The notes below the pieces were generated by a model. The model was not told the DNA's origin. It made no database searches and saw nothing but the letters and a program-made list of their open reading frames with translations. A DNA stretch of 49,508 nt. Source: Oscillospiraceae bacterium (lineage in GTDB: Bacteria; Bacillota; Clostridia; Oscillospirales; Ruminococcaceae). The DNA lies in the NCBI GenBank assembly GCA_017435045.1, contig JAFSFT010000025.1, positions 1 to 49,508 on the forward strand, in the 5' to 3' direction. Below, piece after piece: positions 4,197 to 27,207 of this stretch (position 1 is the stretch's first letter; every line of letters begins with the position of its first letter). A program made the translations under genes and the position numbers.

Positions 4197-7100
4197 ACCT
4201 GTTCCTCGACTTCCTGAGATTCTACCTGATAAAGCTCATCAATTACGCTATTTAGTTCAGCGTTGATTGCTGTGATGGAGTGTTCCAAAACTGTACGACG
4301 AGTGGCGTTAGGCGCAGAAGCTAATTGCTCTTTTAACTGCATGATGTTTTGCACCATCTCAACAATCTGCTGATGCTTGGCAACTTCAGTAGGATTTTCA
4401 AAATCAATCTTGTAAATAGGCAGGGTAGCAATAAACTGCTTTCCATGAGAATAGTAATCTCCCCTAAAGGTGCTTGCTCTACTTTTTACAAGGAGTTCCA
4501 TTAGCCAATGGTTCAAAATTGCCTGGATATAGAAAATGGATTCCTGAGAAGTAGTTTTCTTTTCTATGCCATAGAAAGGACCATTTCCTCCACCTGTAAA
4601 GACAACCATGTCATTATCATAGACATAATTTGAGCTTGTAGAAAGCACAGGCCAAACGAGATGTTCTCCTGCAAGGAAACGTCTTAAAGATTGACTGCGT
4701 CCGAACGCAAACCAATTTTCAGTCGTGCGTCCAGGCATATTGCGTTCATCCAGCTTATCTTTGAAGCGATTCAAATATGCTAACGCATGAGGGAAATCCT
4801 CTGTCATTTCTGTCAAACTATATAGAACCGGTCTTCCGTTTACCGCCTTGTACGGGAATATGATGTAGCTATTTGCTTCAATTTTCTCGTAACTGACAAG
4901 TTGTGTGTCATATATACTTTTACGCAGAATTCCTTTCTCTATCTGGAACTCACGCCCCTGTCTATCGTGAGAGTAAATGAAATTCTCGTCTTCACGATCA
5001 GCGTGAATGATATAGATTTGGTCAGCACTTGTTTGAACACCAACAAAAATGTCAACCAAAGTAGAAAGGGAAACGCAAGATTGCGAAATCTCTTCCAAAT
5101 GTGCAACAATATTTTGAGGCAAGAACGACCACGGCTGACCACTGATATAAGCAGCCGGATAGGTCAAGCATTCTGTATCATGATTGAATAAGAACCGATT
5201 CCAATCCTGAACAAAACCAATTTGGAATTCTTCATGGCCTTGCTTAGATAATACCAAGATGCAGGTGTAAGTGCTTCTGTTTTCAAAAACTTGATGAGTT
5301 CCGAAATGCAGAATTTTCTTAACGCTGGAATTGGAAGAAAGCAATTCTCTCAATTTAGCGCCTGACTTGATATTCATAAACTTGTGCGGGACGATATAAC
5401 CCAACATTCCGCCATCGTTTAACAGTGCAAGTCCTTTTTCAATAAACAGATAATACTTATCGAGCGTATCAGTTTGTGCGGTTACATAGGGAGAATGGCT
5501 GCTCTTATAAAAATCATACTCTTCTCGGGAATAGTGCACCATATTCTGCACACGAATATAGGGCGGATTACCGATAATTGCATCAAACTTTTGGTTGCCA
5601 AACTCAGCATTCCAATCGAACATCTTTAACTTGTTCATCAAGGAAATATTCTGATAAACAGATCGATCAAAACGTGCATAAGCCATATTCACAAGGCTGT
5701 TACCATTTTTGATGTTCTCGTCCAAATTAGGAAGGATACGTTGATTAGTACGCTGATGAAAAGCTTCTGCCTCCTCTAAGGACGAATTTTCCAACGCCTT
5801 TAGCAGCAAGCTAAACTTTGATACTTCTACAGCCAGAGGGTCAATATCAACGCCGAAGATGTTATTTTTCAAAATGGAGCGTTTTTTCTCGTAAGAAAGT
5901 ATATAATTAGTACTGCCAGCCAGTTGATAAATATCGCCTCTTCGCTCAGCATTTTCTCTATCATGGTTTCGATAATACTCAATATGATAGTTTACAATGT
6001 ATTCAAATGCCGACAGCAAGAAGTTGCCAGACCCGCAGCAAATATCTGCAATGCGATACTGAGCTACTTCTTCGGGAGTTTTATTTTCATACAGAGGACG
6101 GAGCGTTTCTTCGATAATAATATCAGTGATGTTTTTTGGGGTATTGACTGCACCCTGGGAGTCAACTACTTCGGGCTTTTCTTGCGTCTCAATATGTCCA
6201 TCTTCTCGGATTACAAGCGCCTCATCCAAGAACAGTTCATAAATCTGACCAATAATATACGGGTCAATTACACCAAACTCATAGGAGTTATTGGGGTAAT
6301 ACAGGCTTTGAAAAATCTCGATAATAACTGAGTCAGACACAGTAAGGCGATCTTCTTCTAAGAGTTCGAATAATCCAGAATCATACTTCTGATCTGCCGC
6401 AGCGAACATTGTCCTTAGATCTTGGTATGTCGTAATAGCCTTCAGCGACTCATAATTCTCGAAACATCTATCCTCACAAATACGAAGGAAAATTGTTCTA
6501 TTAAGCACTCGTTGAACAAAAATATTGAGTGTTTCTACATCAACATTTGGATTGTTGCGCAGAATATCCTTGCCAAGCATCATTCGCCATGCTCTAATCT
6601 GATCCAAGAAATACTGATCGAACGGTTCACGACGAAGAGCTCCCTGAATGTTACCGAAATGGCGATCAAACTGTCCGGTCAAGACTGCTTCTTTGGACAG
6701 CATGTTGTAAATTTCCTCAAAACGTTCCACATACTCGTCGAAGTGGTAGTGAGCAATCATTGCGACACCAATGTCATCGCCTTCTCTCGGACGAACAGAA
6801 CAATCATAGATATATAGATCGGTGAAATTGGTCAACACTGAGACTTTTAAGTTTCCGCTCCATCCATATCTGCGCAGCTGGAATGCCGGAGCTGCATCGA
6901 TAGTAAGGTTTACCGCAGGTTTCTTTGTCTCAAGAAAATACAGGACTTCCGTACCTACCTTGAAAGAATAATCTGGTTTTTTGCTGCGATGGATGCCATC
7001 TTCCTCTACAACTACGGTAGCCTCATGGGTAACTTCACGCAGGTGTTGTGGCAATCCACGTTCGTTATCTACATCCCATCCAAGGAGTTTGAAGAAGCGG

Positions 7101-15590: not shown

Positions 15591-16352
15591 TTATATCAGC
15601 CTTTCTTTTTTCAGCGACAGACGCATTCTGTCGCTTATCATTGCAATAAACTCGCTGTTGGTAGGCTTGCCGCGCATATTGTTTATGGTGTAGCCGAAAT
15701 AGTCGTTCATAACCTCCACATTGCCTCTGTCCCAGGCAATCTCAATAGCGTGACGTATGGCTCTTTCCACTCTGCTTGCAGTGGTGCTGTTGGCCTTGGC
15801 TATATCGGGATACAGCCGTTTGGTAACAAGGCTTATAACATCGGGTTCGTTTATAACCATAATTATGGACTGTCGCAGAAAGCTGTAGCCTTTTACGTGG
15901 GCGGGCACACCCATTGTGTGCAGTATTTCGCTTACACGCATCTCAAGGTCGGAATCCTGCACTTTTTTGCCAAAGGCGGCACCCAGCAGCTGTTCGCTTC
16001 TGGCAAGCAGCATCTCGTACGAATAAGGTTTGAGCATATAATAGTCAAACCCCGCATCATACATCTGGTTTGCAATCCGCTCGTTGTCGCAGCTGCCACA
16101 GGCAAAAAACAGCTTTGGCGAGGTACTCTTGCTTTCGCAGGCGTGCTTTACGCCGATTGCATCCAGGGAGGCTAAAAATACATCAAGTACAACCACCTGC
16201 GGAGCAATACGGTCAATCTCCTTTAATACCTCTTTGCCGTCCTTGGCACAAAAGTATGTTTTAATTCCTTTGCTGTCAAAAAAGTGCTTTATCCCTGACT
16301 GCTGTTCAGGGTTCTGCTCGCTAAATAAAATTCTCAGTTCTTTGGTAATCAT
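15591..16352 (-). CDS. spo0A: Sporulation master regulator Spo0A (degenerate receiver)
   Basis: A 253-aa protein with a receiver domain (about 6 to 120) and the diagnostic Spo0A DNA-binding domain (VKGYSFLRQSI, then TTASRVERAIRHAIE and GKPTNSEFIAM). The phosphoacceptor Asp57 (VVVLDV) and Lys108 (MLKPY) are present. The acidic pair that binds Mg2+, normally Asp-Asp at positions 10 to 12, is Ser11-Glu12, and the usual Thr/Ser region reads FFACGSC. Phosphorelay input may therefore be altered. The ATG at 16352 has AGGGAGA upstream. Spo0A usually follows spoIVB directly; here spoIVB lies beyond an ABC ATPase and points the other way. It has its own promoter with a 0A-like box. Confidence 0.93.
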   Translation of the reverse strand: MITKELRILFSEQNPEQQSGIKHFFDSKGIKTYFCAKDGKEVLKEIDRIAPQVVVLDVFLASLDAIGVKHACESKSTSPKLFFACGSCDNERIANQMYDAGFDYYMLKPYSYEMLLARSEQLLGAAFGKKVQDSDLEMRVSEILHTMGVPAHVKGYSFLRQSIIMVINEPDVISLVTKRLYPDIAKANSTTASRVERAIRHAIEIAWDRGNVEVMNDYFGYTINNMRGKPTNSEFIAMISDRMRLSLKKERLI

Positions 16353-16406
16353 TCAAAGAATCTCCCTAAATGCATCTTATTTAACAGCCTTTTATAAACC
16401 ATCCTT

Positions 16407-16456
16407 ATGTTAACACGGAAAAATCAGCCTTGCAAACCTTTCGGCAATAAACGACA
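16407..16456 (-). promoter_or_regulatory. Likely spo0A promoter with a 0A-like box
   Basis: On the minus strand, -35 TTGCAA (16430 to 16435) and -10 TAACAT (16407 to 16412) are 17 bases apart, 55 bases before the spo0A start. Upstream, TGTCGTT (16450 to 16456) matches six of seven bases of the Spo0A box TGTCGAA, which suggests autoregulation. The rest of the 311-base gap up to the ABC gene shows no gene. Confidence 0.5.
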
Positions 16457-17398: not shown

Positions 17399-18616
17399 AT
17401 GCTGAAAAAAACCGTAAAAATTGCACTTGCCGCAGCGGCACTTACAGCCGCTTTTTCTATATATGTCGCAGGGCTTGTACCCGATAATATCTATCTTTCC
17501 AACGGGGAAAATCCATCCATAAAAAGTCTGCCCATGATTAAGCTGTCGGCACAGCATGGCGGTGCGGAGTATGTGTCTGGAAACAAAAGCAGCCCTCTTG
17601 TATATACTGCAAAGCTGTTTGGCGTACTGCCTGTAAAAGAGGTCAATGTTCAGGCACAGTCTGTACGCACTGTGTCGGTGGCAGGTACTCCTTTTGGCAT
17701 AAAGATGTTCAGCAACGGAGTTATGGTGGTGGGATTTTCCGACATACAGACTGCAGCCGGTACAAGGTGCCCTGCAAAAGCGGCACAGCTTAAGCTTGGG
17801 GATGTTATAATAAAGCTGAACGGATATAGTGTGCAGAGCAACAGCGAGGTGGAGGATTTCATAACACAAAACGGTGACAGGCCTGTAACCGTTACATTTC
17901 TGCGGGACGGTGTGCAGATGCAGGTACAGCTTGTTCCTGTAACAGACAGCACCGCCAATGTATACCGCACAGGTATGTGGGTGCGGGACTCCTCTGCGGG
18001 TGTTGGCACAATGACTTTTTACGATGTACAGCAGGGAATGTTTGCAGGGCTGGGCCACGGCATAAGGGACACCGATACACAAAAGGATATTCCTCTGCTG
18101 TCGGGGGAGATTGTGCCGGTAAGAATAACGGGATGTACACCGTCTTCAAACGGGGAGGCAGGGGAACTTAAAGGAGTGTTTACATCGGAATTTCCAATGG
18201 GCAGGGTGTGGGCAAACAGCACCAACGGTGTCTATGGCAGCATATTTTCTGCTCCGTGTAACAATATGATGCAGGTGGCTTCCCCTGCACAGGTGCAGAC
18301 AGGCCCTGCCACTATACTGACAACAATCAGCGGCACAAAGCCAAAAGAATACGAAATTGTCATTGAAAAGGTGGCACTTACCAGTTCAAATCAGAACAAG
18401 AATATGGTCGTGCGTATAACCGACCCGGAACTGCTGGAAAATACAGGAGGCATAGTGCAGGGAATGTCGGGCAGCCCCATAATCCAGAACGGCAGGCTGG
18501 TGGGGGCGGTAACCCATGTGTTTGTAAATCAGGTCACACGGGGATATGCCGTGTTTGCACAGAATATGCTGTTCAGTATGGACAATGCAGCAAGGGTGTA
18601 TGGTGCAGCGGGATAA
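17399..18616 (+). CDS. spoIVB: SpoIVB serine peptidase
   Basis: A 405-aa secreted PA-clan (S55) protease. In Bacillus it is made in the forespore and cleaves SpoIVFA to trigger processing of pro-sigma K. An N-terminal membrane anchor (about 7 to 25) is followed by a PDZ domain (about 95 to 180, KLGDVIIKLNGY). The protease domain opens with WVRDSSAGVGT (194 to 204). His220 (GLGHG), Asp342 (RITDPELL) and the GMSGSP serine (357 or 359) form the expected catalytic set. GGGAGG precedes the ATG at ideal distance. It is transcribed away from spo0A, not in the usual spoIVB-spo0A tandem. Confidence 0.93.
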   Translation: MLKKTVKIALAAAALTAAFSIYVAGLVPDNIYLSNGENPSIKSLPMIKLSAQHGGAEYVSGNKSSPLVYTAKLFGVLPVKEVNVQAQSVRTVSVAGTPFGIKMFSNGVMVVGFSDIQTAAGTRCPAKAAQLKLGDVIIKLNGYSVQSNSEVEDFITQNGDRPVTVTFLRDGVQMQVQLVPVTDSTANVYRTGMWVRDSSAGVGTMTFYDVQQGMFAGLGHGIRDTDTQKDIPLLSGEIVPVRITGCTPSSNGEAGELKGVFTSEFPMGRVWANSTNGVYGSIFSAPCNNMMQVASPAQVQTGPATILTTISGTKPKEYEIVIEKVALTSSNQNKNMVVRITDPELLENTGGIVQGMSGSPIIQNGRLVGAVTHVFVNQVTRGYAVFAQNMLFSMDNAARVYGAAG

Positions 18617-18716: not shown

Positions 18717-21185
18717 ATGAGCTATTTCGGGAAATTTTATCTGGATAAGGAAAAGGATATTGCAGTGCTGTTGGATATGGAAAATTCTGTCCTCAGCTAC
18801 ACAATTATGGCGGCGGAGCATCTGTCCCACAACCTTATAAATAATTTTGCGGCAATTTCAGGACAGCGGACAGATATGCAGGATGGACGTCCTGTAATCA
18901 AAGGCCAGATACCATGCTATATAAAGGGCGACGGCAAAAAGGTATACATACTGCGTCTGGGCGGTACAAAGCTGGCCAACATCTATCCCGATGGCACAAT
19001 GGAGGTGAACAGCCTTATTCCTGCCATTGCAAAAACACTGATGAGTCAGACCACAGATTACAAATATTCTTTCCGCGAGACACTGCTTAAAAGTTATGTT
19101 CCGCAGGAAGTAAAACTGTCCACCGACCTGCACACCCACGGCAACGCAAACCTTTCTGCCGATATTCTTATTGCCCTTGCAATCAAGCATCAGATACGCT
19201 ATCCGCTGTACTACATCAAAAAACTGCAGCTGGTTATGACAGAGCAGCAGAAAGCCTTTGTGGCACAGCGCCGTGAACAGGCAGAAAAATCCCTTGACCT
19301 TACAGGCCTTTCGGGCAAGCACAGAGACAGAAGGATTGATGACAATACATTTATCAATTTTGCAGATTTCATTCTTAACAACCTTGAAAATTCTTCGGAA
19401 AATATAAACAAAATCCGTGGTTCTCTCTCGCTGCTCAAGGGTGCACAGGCGGTTTTTACAAACCTTGAAAAGCTGTATCTTTACCGTTATGTATTTACCA
19501 AAGGGGCACCGTCTGACTATACAATTGACCTGCCGGATTTTTCCCGGCTTGAGGATAAAGATATCTGCGGATATCTTGGACAGATGCTTGAGGATATGAA
19601 TACCCCGGGTTATGCACAGAATACCCTGTACGAGGACACGCTGCTGTGGATTGGCAGGGAATATCAGAAGCGGCATATAAAATATGTGGAAATCAGCGAC
19701 ACCACACTGGTTAAAAAGGATGCTTCCAACGCCCGTATGCTGCAGCAGATACACCGCATAATGCCGCTTGTAAAGGCAGAGACAGGGGTAGACATCCGCT
19801 TTCTTGCGGCAATCCGCCGTATACCGCTGACACTGGTAAAGCAGAATATCACCACGGGCAACTACCTTACTGACGCTATAAGCGCTTTGCGTGTGGTCTG
19901 CACAGACCCTTACGTTGTGGGCAGCGACTTTGTGGGCGAGGAGATAAACGACATTGCCGAACTTAAGGCGGTTATAAAAGAAATTGTAACCCGTATTGCC
20001 AGCCGCGACCGCAACTGGACAATCCGTGTCCATGCAGGGGAAAACGACTCGCTCAAAAGCAATATGGCAAAAGCTGTCAGCCTTGTGGAGGATTCTTTGC
20101 TGCCGGGTCAGCCGTTCCCGTATATGCGTATAGGCCATGGCCTGTACTGTGCAAGCCTCAAAAGCCGTCAGGGTAAAGAGATGATGGATAAAATCCGTGA
20201 GCACGATATTGTTCTGGAATTCCAGCTTACCAGCAATGTGCGTCTTAACAATATTATTGACCTTCGTGTTCATCCGCTTAAAAGCTATCTTGCCCACGGG
20301 ATTTCCTGTGTAATGGGTACGGACGGTTACGGCCTTTACGGCACCGACAGCATAGATGAACAGCTGGCACTTACAAACTTTATCAAAATTACCGACAGCG
20401 AGTTTGCTGCAATGAAAAAGGCAGAGGACGCTGTAATTGCACGACAGACAGAAAATTTTGCCGAAAAAAGTGCAGCTTTTGCAAAAACTGCCGGTACAGA
20501 AAGTGTGCTGGAATACTATACCCGCAAGCTTACACAGTGCGATGATGAGATTTCTGATGTCAAATTTGAAATAGACAAAAAACCGTCTTATCCTGTGTTT
20601 AAGCATAAAGTTAGCGAACTTCCATGGGACAAGTATCCTGTGGTTATTGCAGGTGGCAGCTTTACAACAGCAAAATCTGCAGGCGGTATTTCCGGAAGTG
20701 ATAAAATGCTGCTGGACACTCTGCTGGAAAATCTTGACCCCGGTAAGGTGTTCTTTGTGGTGGGGCACAGCCTGCGTGGCCACGAGGGATACATTGTAAA
20801 AAACAACAAGGGCTTTGATGTGTACAGCATCGTCCCTGCCCTTATGGACCAAAAGCAGATGAACCGTCTGCAGAAAGCACAGATAAAGGGCATCCGTATC
20901 TCTACCGAAAGCCAGGAGATGGGCATATACAAATCCTTCAACTACGAAATTTTCGAGCGAAGAAACTGCGTGCTGATTGCTTTTGACGGCAACTCCTCCA
21001 TTGCAAATCTGGTGCAGGAGGCCAGAAACGGCAAGGGAAAAGCCTGGATATTTACCTATCCTAAATCTGCAATGCTCAGGGCAAAGGCAGAGTCTCTGGA
21101 GGGGTATATTTCCATTAATTCGCCTGCAGAAAAGGTACTTGGCAAAATCTGCAAGGTACAGAGTGACATAGGCACAAAGCTGTAA
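18717..21185 (+). CDS. Adenosine-deaminase-like amidohydrolase fused to a C-terminal SLOG-like domain
   Basis: An 822-aa protein, more than twice the usual adenosine deaminase length. Metal-site motifs of the ADA family are present: HTH (139 to 141), HAGE (439 to 442), RIGHG (471 to 475), TSN (505 to 507) and TD (535 to 536). The second Asp of the usual TDDP motif is Gly537, which removes a residue that contacts the purine ring. About 300 residues, mostly helical, separate the first two motifs. Residues about 636 to 822 form a Rossmann-like domain (VVIAGGSF, then LIAFDGNSSIANLVQEA, GKAWIF) resembling SLOG/DprA-type nucleotide-binding folds. It has its own terminator and no obvious partner gene. 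The substrate may be a nucleoside or nucleotide signal. Large deaminases such as RdrB of RADAR are known in phage defence, but no RdrA-like ATPase is here. Confidence 0.7.
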   Translation: MSYFGKFYLDKEKDIAVLLDMENSVLSYTIMAAEHLSHNLINNFAAISGQRTDMQDGRPVIKGQIPCYIKGDGKKVYILRLGGTKLANIYPDGTMEVNSLIPAIAKTLMSQTTDYKYSFRETLLKSYVPQEVKLSTDLHTHGNANLSADILIALAIKHQIRYPLYYIKKLQLVMTEQQKAFVAQRREQAEKSLDLTGLSGKHRDRRIDDNTFINFADFILNNLENSSENINKIRGSLSLLKGAQAVFTNLEKLYLYRYVFTKGAPSDYTIDLPDFSRLEDKDICGYLGQMLEDMNTPGYAQNTLYEDTLLWIGREYQKRHIKYVEISDTTLVKKDASNARMLQQIHRIMPLVKAETGVDIRFLAAIRRIPLTLVKQNITTGNYLTDAISALRVVCTDPYVVGSDFVGEEINDIAELKAVIKEIVTRIASRDRNWTIRVHAGENDSLKSNMAKAVSLVEDSLLPGQPFPYMRIGHGLYCASLKSRQGKEMMDKIREHDIVLEFQLTSNVRLNNIIDLRVHPLKSYLAHGISCVMGTDGYGLYGTDSIDEQLALTNFIKITDSEFAAMKKAEDAVIARQTENFAEKSAAFAKTAGTESVLEYYTRKLTQCDDEISDVKFEIDKKPSYPVFKHKVSELPWDKYPVVIAGGSFTTAKSAGGISGSDKMLLDTLLENLDPGKVFFVVGHSLRGHEGYIVKNNKGFDVYSIVPALMDQKQMNRLQKAQIKGIRISTESQEMGIYKSFNYEIFERRNCVLIAFDGNSSIANLVQEARNGKGKAWIFTYPKSAMLRAKAESLEGYISINSPAEKVLGKICKVQSDIGTKL

Positions 21186-24758: not shown

Positions 24759-24807
24759 TGTCGGTTCTTGTCGAAAAATTGAACAATGCCTGTGCAGATG
24801 TTATCAT
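24759..24807 (+). promoter_or_regulatory. Promoter with two tandem 0A boxes in front of the Spo0A paralogue
   Basis: TGTCGGT (24759 to 24765) and TGTCGAA (24769 to 24775) are 10 bases apart start to start, one helical turn, as in tandem Spo0A boxes. They abut a sigma-A-like promoter: -35 TTGAAC (24779 to 24784), 17-base spacer, -10 TATCAT (24802 to 24807). The second box matches the consensus exactly. This predicts direct control by Spo0A, by the paralogue, or by both. Confidence 0.65.
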
Positions 24808-24857
24808 ATGTATAAAATAAACATCAGACAAACCAAAATGATAAAAGAGGGTAATAT

Positions 24858-25622
24858 ATGGAAGCCAGAAGGCTGAAAATTCTGTTTTGCGAAAAAAGCC
24901 AGCAGCAGGCAAAAGCACTGCAGAGCTTTTTTGAAGACAAAAACATAGATGTGTATTTTTCTGAATTTGACGGCAGAAAGATGCTTTGGAATATAGAGCA
25001 AATCTGCCCTGATATAGCAGTTATGGAAATATATATGCCGCATTACAATGCGGTGGAAGTGAAAAAACTGTGCTGTGATAAGTCATACAGTCCAAAGCTG
25101 TTTGTGGTTCAGGGAAGTTTTGACGATGAAGACATAATAGAAAGTGCAATGGAGGCAGGGTTTGACAGATATCTGCTGCGTCCGTTCGATTTCAGGCTGC
25201 TGCTTGATATATCCGACAAAGTTATTGCACAAAGCAGAGACAGAATGTCTGAATTTGAATATCTTGAAGACTATGCCGGCAGGATGCTGCAGCATATGGC
25301 TGCACCAATGCACGTTGCAGGATACGGATATCTGCGGCAAAGCATAGCACTTGCGGTTTGTCAGCCGGAACTTATGAACAGAATTACAAAAGGTTTGTAC
25401 AGATATATTGCAGATATTAACGGCACTACCGTAAGCAGAGTGGAACGCTCTATGCGTACTGCCATTAACCTTATATGGGAACGCGGTAATCTGGCAGTAG
25501 TCGATGAGTATTTCTGCTGTGGCATAAATGATGTGTGCGGCAAGCCTACAAACTCGGAGTTTATCACCATAGTTGCCGACCGTCTGAAAAGACAGATGGA
25601 AAAAGAAAAAACAGCTCTTTGA
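24858..25622 (+). CDS. Spo0A paralogue with a phosphomimic-type pseudo-receiver
   Basis: A 254-aa protein that aligns from end to end with Spo0A at 15591 to 16352, with matching residue numbers. The DNA-binding domain is intact (TTVSRVERSMRTAINLIWERG, GKPTNSEFIT). In the receiver, the phosphoacceptor position is Glu57 (AVMEIYM) instead of Asp57, the conserved Lys108 is Arg (LLRPF), and the acidic pair is Cys11-Glu12. It therefore cannot be phosphorylated in the normal way and may be constitutively active or regulated by dimerisation with Spo0A. Recognition-helix changes are modest (Ala to Val, Ala-Ile-Arg-His to Ser-Met-Arg-Thr). The leader holds tandem 0A boxes, and a bidirectional terminator follows. 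Confidence 0.85.
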   Translation: MEARRLKILFCEKSQQQAKALQSFFEDKNIDVYFSEFDGRKMLWNIEQICPDIAVMEIYMPHYNAVEVKKLCCDKSYSPKLFVVQGSFDDEDIIESAMEAGFDRYLLRPFDFRLLLDISDKVIAQSRDRMSEFEYLEDYAGRMLQHMAAPMHVAGYGYLRQSIALAVCQPELMNRITKGLYRYIADINGTTVSRVERSMRTAINLIWERGNLAVVDEYFCCGINDVCGKPTNSEFITIVADRLKRQMEKEKTAL

Positions 25623-25631
25623 GCAGGAGCA

Positions 25632-25668
25632 ATAAAAAATGCAGATGCGTGTTGCATCTGCATTTTGT
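25632..25668. terminator. Bidirectional terminator between the Spo0A paralogue and glpK
   Basis: A perfect ATGCAGATGC-GTGTT-GCATCTGCAT hairpin (25639 to 25663). It is flanked by an A run on the left and a T run on the right, so it can serve the convergent genes on both strands. Confidence 0.85.
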
Positions 25669-25678
25669 TTGCAATATT

Positions 25679-27163
25679 TTAATCTGCCCAGTTCATACTT
25701 CTGCCCACGGCCTTCTGCCAGCCACGGAAAAGCTTTTCCCGCTTTTCGCTTTCCATACAAGGCTCAAAGTTGCCGTCGTATCTGCGGCTTGCAATCAGCT
25801 GCTCTTTATCGGTCCAGAAGCCTGTTGCCAGCCCTGCAAGGTATGCTGCACCAAGCGCGGTGGTTTCCTTTACTTTAGGGCGTTTTACCACCTTGTCCAT
25901 AATATCAGCCTGAAACTGCATAAGGAAGGCATCACGGCTTGCACCGCCGTCAACATTCAGCACTTTAAGCACAGTGCCGGAGTCTTTTTCCATAGCCTTT
26001 ACCAGTTCAAGAGACTGGTATGCAATGCTCTCCTGTGCAGCACGGATAATATGTTCTCTTTTTGTACCTCTTGTAATGCCTACAATGCAGCCTCTGGCAT
26101 ACATATCCCAGTATGGTGCGCCAAGTCCTGTAAAGGCAGGCACAAGGTAAACCCCGCCTGTATCCTCTACCTTTGCTGCATAATATTCGGCATCCTTGCT
26201 TTCGGCGATAAAACGCATCTCATCACGCAGCCACTGAATGACCGCACCGCCGATAAATACACTGCCTTCAAGGGCATACTGCACCTTGCCGTCAATGCCC
26301 ACAGCAATTGTGGTAACAAGGCCGGAGTTGGAATAGCAGGGTTTTTCGCCTGTGTTCATCAGCAGAAAACAGCCTGTGCCGTAGGTGTTTTTGGCCTGGC
26401 CTGCCTCAAAACAGCCCTGACCGAACAGTGCAGCCTGCTGGTCACCTGCAATGCCTGCAATCGGTATATCCACCCCCTGAATATTCACATGGCCGTAGAT
26501 ATGGCTGCTTGGCAGCACCTGAGGCAGCACGGATTTTGGAATATCCAGTGCACTCAGCAGTCTGTCATCCCATTTAAGAGTATTTATGTTGTAAAGCATT
26601 GTTCTGCTTGCGTTTGTATAGTCGGTAATATGTACCTTGCCGCCTGTCAGTTTCCACACCAGCCAGCTGTCAACTGTGCCAAAAAGGATTTCTCCTCTTT
26701 CAGCTTTTTCCCGAACACCGTCCACATTGTCCAGAATCCACTTGATTTTGGTTGCGGAAAAATATGCGTCGATAACAAGGCCTGTGCTGTTTTTGATATA
26801 GTCTGTCCAGCCCTCTGCCTTTAATTTGTCGCAGATGTCGGCTGTACGGCGGCACTGCCACACAATTGCATTATACACAGGTCTGCCTGTGTTTTTGTCC
26901 CACATAATGGTAGTTTCACGCTGGTTGGTAATGCCTATTGCAGAAATTTCTTCAGGAGATACACCGCTTTTGGCAATAACCTCCATCATAACGGAATACT
27001 GGCTGGAATAGATTTCCATAGGGTCGTGCTCAACCCATCCGTCACGGGGATAAATCTGTGTAAATTCCCTCTGGCTCATCGCCACAATATTCTGCTCTTT
27101 GTCAAAAAGGATTGCACGGGAACTGGTTGTTCCCTGGTCAAGAGAAAGGATGTATTTGGACAT
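25679..27163 (-). CDS. glpK: Glycerol kinase
   Basis: A 494-aa FGGY-family kinase that phosphorylates glycerol to sn-glycerol 3-phosphate with ATP. Visible motifs are [13 protein letters not shown] (residues 8 to 20), [17 protein letters not shown], the [13 protein letters not shown] stretch and the [13 protein letters not shown] end. The length is typical of GlpK. I chose the ATG at 27163 because GAGGTG lies four bases before it; the codon at 27175 would sit upstream of that site. No glycerol facilitator or glycerol-3-phosphate dehydrogenase is adjacent, so it stands alone here. A near-palindrome upstream could be its operator. Confidence 0.95.
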
Positions 27164-27207
27164 AAAACACCTCAATTTTATATTTACAGATACTTTGGGC
27201 TGACTGA

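Follow-up and report, generated by a model that had tools for sequence, protein, structure and literature searches.

Does a second copy of the sporulation regulator Spo0A, with glutamate in place of the phosphorylated aspartate, act as a permanently active form of the regulator, or has it taken on some other role? The question is raised by a 49,508-nucleotide stretch of DNA from an Oscillospiraceae bacterium (the window), which is contig C23 of a host assembly (G000) of 1.88 Mb in 70 contigs, 86% complete. Searches of this genome with the protein of the second copy (the paralogue) and with the Spo0A_C profile each find the same pair of Spo0A-type genes, and SpoIVA scores above its cut-off. The two genes are in opposite orientation and flank an 8.5-kb segment; SpoIVB is encoded at 17399-18616, one gene off from the canonical spo0A. 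The features are:

15591..16352, minus strand: canonical spo0A, with Asp57 and Lys108, above the TIGR02875 cut-off.
16440..16456, minus strand: tandem 0A boxes TGTCGTT-TAT-TGCCGAA upstream of the canonical spo0A.
24759..24765, plus strand: 0A box 1, TGTCGGT (motif match).
24769..24775, plus strand: 0A box 2, TGTCGAA, 10 bp from box 1 (motif match).
24779..24807, plus strand: sigma-A-like promoter TTGAAC-17-TATCAT, 3 bp 3' of box 2 (consensus match only).
24858..25622, plus strand: spo0A paralogue, 254 aa, with a pseudo-receiver and a diverged Spo0A_C domain (open reading frame, Pfam, TIGR02875 score).
24879..25208, plus strand: receiver domain, aa 8-117 (Pfam PF00072).
25026..25028, plus strand: codon GAA, Glu57, at the phosphoacceptor position, B. 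subtilis Asp56 (alignment).
25179..25181, plus strand: codon CGT, Arg108, at the conserved Lys position (alignment).
25281..25586, plus strand: Spo0A_C DNA-binding domain, aa 142-243 (Pfam PF08769).
25636..25666, no strand given: hairpin in the interval between the paralogue and the gene that converges on it (25679-27175), resembling a minus-strand terminator.

Both Spo0A domains are recognized in the paralogue. The C-terminal domain matches PF08769 at 1.1e-30, and the receiver matches Response_reg (PF00072) with 35.8 bits against a cut-off of 30.2; with the TIGR02875 Spo0A model, it reaches 161.6 bits, under the 200-bit cut-off, while the canonical copy (235.8) is over it. The two window proteins are 40% identical and align position for position, as the earlier note had described, with one gap only, close to the C-terminus. 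Glu57 stands opposite Asp57 and Arg108 opposite Lys108, the codons at the aligned positions being GAA and CGT, and both replacements reported in that note are confirmed. Misalignment is ruled out as the source of the glutamate, which is not shifted: there is no gap nearby, and PDIAVMEIYMPH is in gap-free register with PDVLLLDIIMPH of a solved Spo0A receiver. The pocket is more degenerate than the two residues first singled out would indicate, since the acidic pair is Glu12-Lys13 and Gly86 occupies the Thr/Ser position; Tyr105 is kept. The canonical copy also departs from the textbook form (Glu12-Gln13, Gly86) but keeps Asp57 and Lys108. The paralogue apart, each of the 18 aligned rows from the genus has a Glu-Gln acidic pair; Lys13 is specific to the paralogue, and loss of Thr/Ser is common to both window copies. 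An AlphaFold two-sequence model of the window proteins was poor (mean pLDDT 53). Judged from these residues, phosphate uptake in the normal way should be impossible for the paralogue, and with Glu57 at the phosphoacceptor site its description as an unphosphorylatable copy is supported to that extent.

The DNA-binding domain, initially taken to be intact, has changed considerably. It was compared in an alignment of 131 rows, 130 from loci and one for B. subtilis; four are second copies, and among the 127 rows other than these, conservation reaches 95% or more in 50 columns of the C-terminal domain. Sixteen of the 50 are changed in the paralogue, 16 in its orthologue in the congener G014, and 13 and 23 in the second copies of G008 and G013, against at most six in the other rows and at most one in canonical genus copies, low counts that are partly built in, because the columns were chosen for conservation in the same rows and most rows by best Spo0A_C score. 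The contrast between the four second copies and the remaining rows is still large despite this bias. In the two orthologues, ten changed positions are common, four of them altered to the same residue (D225E, G237C, Y238C and T239G in B. subtilis numbering), which argues for shared derived change and not random loss. Common changes in the recognition helix affect His218, Glu221, Ala223 and Asp225, and Gly-Tyr-Thr 237-239 has become Cys-Cys-Gly. The loop around B. subtilis residues 231-240, with FGYT at 236-239, contacts sigma-A. The SRVER core is retained in the window paralogue; Arg211 is lost in the G014 orthologue.

Upstream of the paralogue lies TGTCGGT-TCT-TGTCGAA (24759-24775), so that both boxes reported beside the promoter, 10 bases apart, were found; the promoter, TTGAAC-17-TATCAT, is a consensus match without statistical support (four promoter-like matches in the region versus 3.1 in shuffles). 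With at most one mismatch, the pattern TGTCGN5TGTCGAA occurs twice in the window against 0.17 expected, a number reached in none of 100 shuffles, and four times in the whole 1.88-Mb genome. The one exact match is the pair upstream of the paralogue; the others are one upstream of the canonical spo0A and two on contigs C37 and C42. Reversed-pattern controls gave 39 and 32 matches and, with their different base order, are a poor yardstick. A tandem pair with 10-bp spacing, about 90-115 bp upstream of the start, precedes the G014 paralogue too, and the same layout is seen at the canonical spo0A of G000 (with mismatches), G014, G003, G010, G012 and at both G006 copies. The paralogue also has in common with canonical spo0A a promoter placed 3' of the boxes in like fashion. 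The spo0A promoter of G005 has a single perfect 0A box, and the remaining eight genus promoters examined (G004, G007, G009, G011, G015, G001, G008 and G013) differ. In the wider sample described below, a perfect 0A box is present within 250 bp upstream of 41 of the 96 genes with Asp, 8 of the 20 with Glu and 1 of the 10 with another residue (2.6, 0.6 and 0.3 expected by base shuffling), and a tandem pair upstream of eight, one and none. Because the canonical spo0A shares the pair here and in relatives, it is the autoregulatory spo0A promoter, retained through the duplication; that it evolved for the paralogue is rejected on the same ground.

Given such good tandem sites in the promoter, control of the paralogue by Spo0A is plausible. 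Induction by Spo0A~P is not a given, because the 0A boxes of B. subtilis spo0A have been modelled as chiefly repressive (PMC12090719). There is also a difference in the leader. A stretch, GGTTTATAAAAGGCTGTTAAATA, lies 3' of the canonical spo0A promoter in the window (16378-16400, minus strand) and at L067, L004, L072, L074, L075 and L068, that is, in seven genomes (at both G006 copies), and is absent upstream of the two diverged paralogues. Since this element is missing upstream of the paralogue, its expression may differ from that of the canonical gene.

The origin of the paralogue can be traced within the genus. A search of 16 genus genomes with its protein (E<=1e-15) gave two matches in G000, G014, G006, G008 and G013, one in ten genomes and none in G002, a 96%-complete congener in which neither the protein search nor the Spo0A_C profile found a significant Spo0A match. 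The profile finds more elsewhere (two in G003, G004 and G007, three in G008, four in G011), and some extra matches in genus genomes are short and have no receiver. The surrounding block is conserved in G014, where 14 of 15 tested window ORFs, paralogue included, occur in the same order (most gene names in the block are a reading by eye). The sole absentee is an 822-aa gene that G000 has at 18717-21185 and that by eye resembles a deaminase; G014 lacks it at this position. In G003, G010 and G012 a hydrogenase gene directly follows ispDF, as if the 8.5-kb segment had been rearranged at spo0A.

In a careful tree, the paralogue and its G014 orthologue form one clade (support 100/100), which adjoins the canonical spo0A of G000, G014 and G005 (93/85, branch not starred). 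Duplication inside the genus is indicated, because the clade sits beside the canonical genes of the genus. Import by phage or plasmid was set aside, as the block is shared with G014 and the paralogue branches beside the local spo0A. The second copies of G008 and G013 were considered as the same paralogue and are separated from it in the free tree, the one-clade test being borderline (p-AU 0.046). These copies (L034 and L035) represent a second diverged Spo0A duplicate, with Asp kept and with His218 and the FGYT loop likewise altered, which is probably independent of the window paralogue. As to how often the Glu57 paralogue occurs among relatives, the phylogeny yields two orthologues only, with Glu in G000 and, at the same slot in G014, Asp at the phosphoacceptor and Arg at the conserved Lys. 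Loss of the phosphoacceptor is thus not conserved in the pair, whereas the Lys-to-Arg change is.

Between G000 and G014, identity is 93% for spo0A, 50% for the paralogue, 75-98% for ten other genes and 55% for an acetyltransferase-like gene. Left out of this list is g16643, an ORF antisense to a minus-strand ABC ATPase (read by eye), with an odd dN/dS that is probably due to its antisense placement. For the paralogue pair, dN/dS comes to 0.22 when its dS of 1.73 is used and to about 0.45 with the flanking dS of 0.6-1.1, figures that are only rough because dS is near saturation. The dN of 0.385 is about 2-30 times that of 11 other block genes, the acetyltransferase-like gene alone being close (0.342). 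Differences at the three codon positions are 0.335/0.268/0.535, and the frames are open in both species.

The reading preferred here, at a probability of about one in two, is that the paralogue is a local spo0A duplicate which is now a Spo0A-induced pseudo-receiver regulator with altered output, modulating Spo0A and not copying it. The duplicate would have kept the autoregulated spo0A promoter while becoming a pseudo-receiver transcription regulator. Phosphorylated canonical Spo0A would bind the tandem 0A boxes and alter the expression of both copies, and the signal carried by the paralogue would be its level and not its phosphorylation, normal phosphate uptake being presumably impossible. It would then form a side branch, binding some of the 0A-like sites, either by itself or as a partner of Spo0A, and changing the activation of sigma-A RNA polymerase so that Spo0A output is modulated. 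A side-branch role seems the most likely because pocket and DNA-binding domain are both changed. The analysis shows the sequence changes, synteny, the common promoter layout and a dN/dS below 1; control by Spo0A~P, the lost phosphorylation, binding to DNA and whether the effect is positive or negative are inferred.

The same alterations could also make the paralogue a brake that occupies 0A sites or pairs with Spo0A without activating, giving delayed negative feedback. The change from FGYT to FCCG around B. subtilis 236-239 in both orthologues, together with the recognition-helix changes and the SRVER core of the window copy, would suit such a protein, and the second duplicate of G008/G013 is also without G237 and T239 of the loop. 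However, its binding to 0A boxes is presumed, and with Arg211 gone from the G014 orthologue the idea is only a tentative one. A decaying duplicate with no role left is quite improbable: the high dN, 50% identity against 93% for spo0A and a glutamate absent from the orthologue point that way, but neither species has a broken frame, differences at third positions are twice as frequent as at second positions, and the shared derived residues and 0A boxes have been kept. There remains the proposal that Glu57 mimics phospho-Asp, so that Spo0A~P would turn on an always-active copy and lock in sporulation. CheY is activated by D13K, and the paralogue has Lys13 at the second acidic position. RitR likewise has a Glu-Lys pair (PMC4395418); where receivers lack the aspartate, Glu most often takes its place, D-to-E can activate (PMC4395418, PMC12632262), and the CmrR-CmrT system of C. 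difficile is a working precedent (PMC12548384). Constitutive activity is nevertheless unlikely, for the usual partners of a phosphomimic Glu, both present in CmrT (PMC12548384), are gone here (Gly86 for Thr/Ser, Arg108 for Lys), Spo0A is named as a case where D-to-E alone is insufficient (PMC4395418), the orthologue carries Asp, and the DNA-binding domain is altered.

The first description of the locus was sound in its main points, bar the intact domain, and its interpretation holds in part: it is plausible that Spo0A controls a copy that cannot be phosphorylated, whereas an always-active feed-forward copy is doubtful, and the boxes are a retained autoregulatory promoter, not a special device. 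The scheme has a known parallel in C. difficile. There CmrR autoactivates its operon, from which CmrT is made as well; CmrT is an aspartate-less regulator of the Glu type, and constitutive activity has been inferred for it (PMC12548384, PMC12632262). As with the window pair, a normal regulator drives transcription that also yields a Glu-type regulator, and heterodimers are possible; the differences are the OmpR-type domains, the single operon, and Thr80 and Lys102 retained in CmrT (PMC12548384). Aspartate-less receivers are well known as a class (PMC4395418, PMC12632262), and the paralogue resembles them in having Glu at Asp and in keeping the first acidic residue and losing the second, which is common in the class; it differs in its Spo0A-type output domain and in the loss of Lys and Thr/Ser, residues retained by some 60-70% of the class. 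Phage-borne Spo0A homologues likewise have Spo0A DNA-binding domains freed from phosphorylation but are on phages and have no receiver, while the paralogue has a full one and lies in a conserved block (PMC10294663). With Spo0A itself (TIGR02875, PF08769 plus PF00072) the paralogue shares domain order, length, a local-duplication origin and the 0A-box promoter. It is set apart by the replaced phosphoacceptor and Lys, by a TIGR02875 score below the cut-off and by the changed DNA-binding columns; Thr/Ser is replaced too, but likewise in the canonical copy. It may be seen as an added Spo0A duplicate that kept the 0A-box promoter while receiver and DNA-binding domain diverged. Among the matches listed in searches of the open full-text literature, in the excerpts accessible, neither a natural Spo0A with a replaced phosphoacceptor nor a full-length Spo0A paralogue of the window type was found.

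The replacement itself is not confined to this locus. Spo0A genes were sampled across the family and order of the window, the best match to Spo0A_C or to the protein being taken, mostly one per genus; the sample covers part of the 396 family genomes, 361 of which have a Spo0A_C match and some up to nine. Removed before counting were L107, where the gene is truncated, the incomplete ORFs of L036 and L046, loci present in duplicate, and the second copy from G006, identical to the first in its C-terminal 120 residues. At the position of B. subtilis Asp56, the 130 rows have Asp in 99, Glu in 21, Asn in 7, Ser in 2 and His in 1; without the four second copies (126 rows), the counts are 96, 20, 7, 2 and 1. 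On a quick tree, which carries long-branch warnings and does not give the direction of change, Glu needs 17 changes, at least 11 of them forced by starred branches, and is somewhat clustered (shuffled mean 19.8). Of 30 replacements 20 are to Glu, compared with 26% in a published survey of receivers without the aspartate (PMC4395418), although the rows are related; counted by changes it is 11 of 21 (p ~0.009, a rough figure). Ser/Thr86 and Lys108 are both kept in 10 of the 20 Glu rows, as a phosphomimic would want, while the window paralogue has neither. Asp and Glu alternate between sister species within g13, g19 and g129.

In eight genomes of seven genera, 92-99% complete, the only significant Spo0A_C match has Glu (G023, G147, G084, G309, G284, G191, G133 and G218, at L018, L085, L089, L093, L117, L040, L124 and L088); a second match in G023 reaches only E 0.27. 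The sole match has Ser, His or Asn in G121, G111 and G077. In all 11 Asp-less sole copies, no more than one of the 50 conserved DNA-binding columns is changed, and SpoIVA is above its cut-off in all 11 genomes (in two pieces in G309). Counter to this, two of the 30 genomes tested have no SpoIVA; both carry a Glu-type Spo0A, and their assemblies are less complete (G098 at 87%, with a sole match, and G096 at 83%, with two). G047, outside the SpoIVA test set, has a sole Glu match at 85% completeness, and in the remaining Glu genomes Spo0A_C finds at least two genes each. SpoIIE-like matches occur in all 11, none above the cut-off and those of G111 and G023 covering only part of the model; with TIGR02865, 14 of 14 genomes match at E<=0.001 and none passes the cut-off, which is weak support, as Thermotoga also matches.

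This pattern suggests that loss of the aspartate is tolerated or favoured in the true Spo0A of the group. This makes the window Glu57 less unusual and the family pattern more interesting, and the repeated loss of the phosphoacceptor in the sole Spo0A of related genomes that carry sporulation genes is the result most worth following up. According to a 2024 review, every endospore former starts sporulation via Spo0A, which becomes active once a conserved aspartate is phosphorylated (PMC11210211). If an Asp-less sole Spo0A is functional, that rule has natural exceptions, and the usual picture of the sporulation decision may fail for such genomes. The chances seem about even that the family has repeatedly given up aspartate phosphorylation of Spo0A, that genera with a single Asp-less Spo0A sporulate by Spo0A amount or another signal, and that the window paralogue is a related step taken beside an Asp-type Spo0A. 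The Asp/Glu pairs within g13, g19 and g129 would then allow a direct test of a shift in what drives sporulation, from phosphorylation to dose.

The two spo0A copies of G006, in the spoIVB and ecsC-ADH neighbourhoods, are 99.8% identical over 954 bp, the result of recent duplication or gene conversion; they lie at 4409-5182 and 17103-17876 of L068, in direct orientation and about 12.7 kb apart. Two near-identical spo0A genes in G005 were also considered and dropped: one spo0A adjoins ispDF, and the second contig end, without the inserted gene, is consistent with a variant of the strain or of the assembly. On one G005 contig only, a gene that by eye resembles an acyltransferase (2171-3271 of L004) separates ispDF and spo0A, and this assembly may hold two variants.
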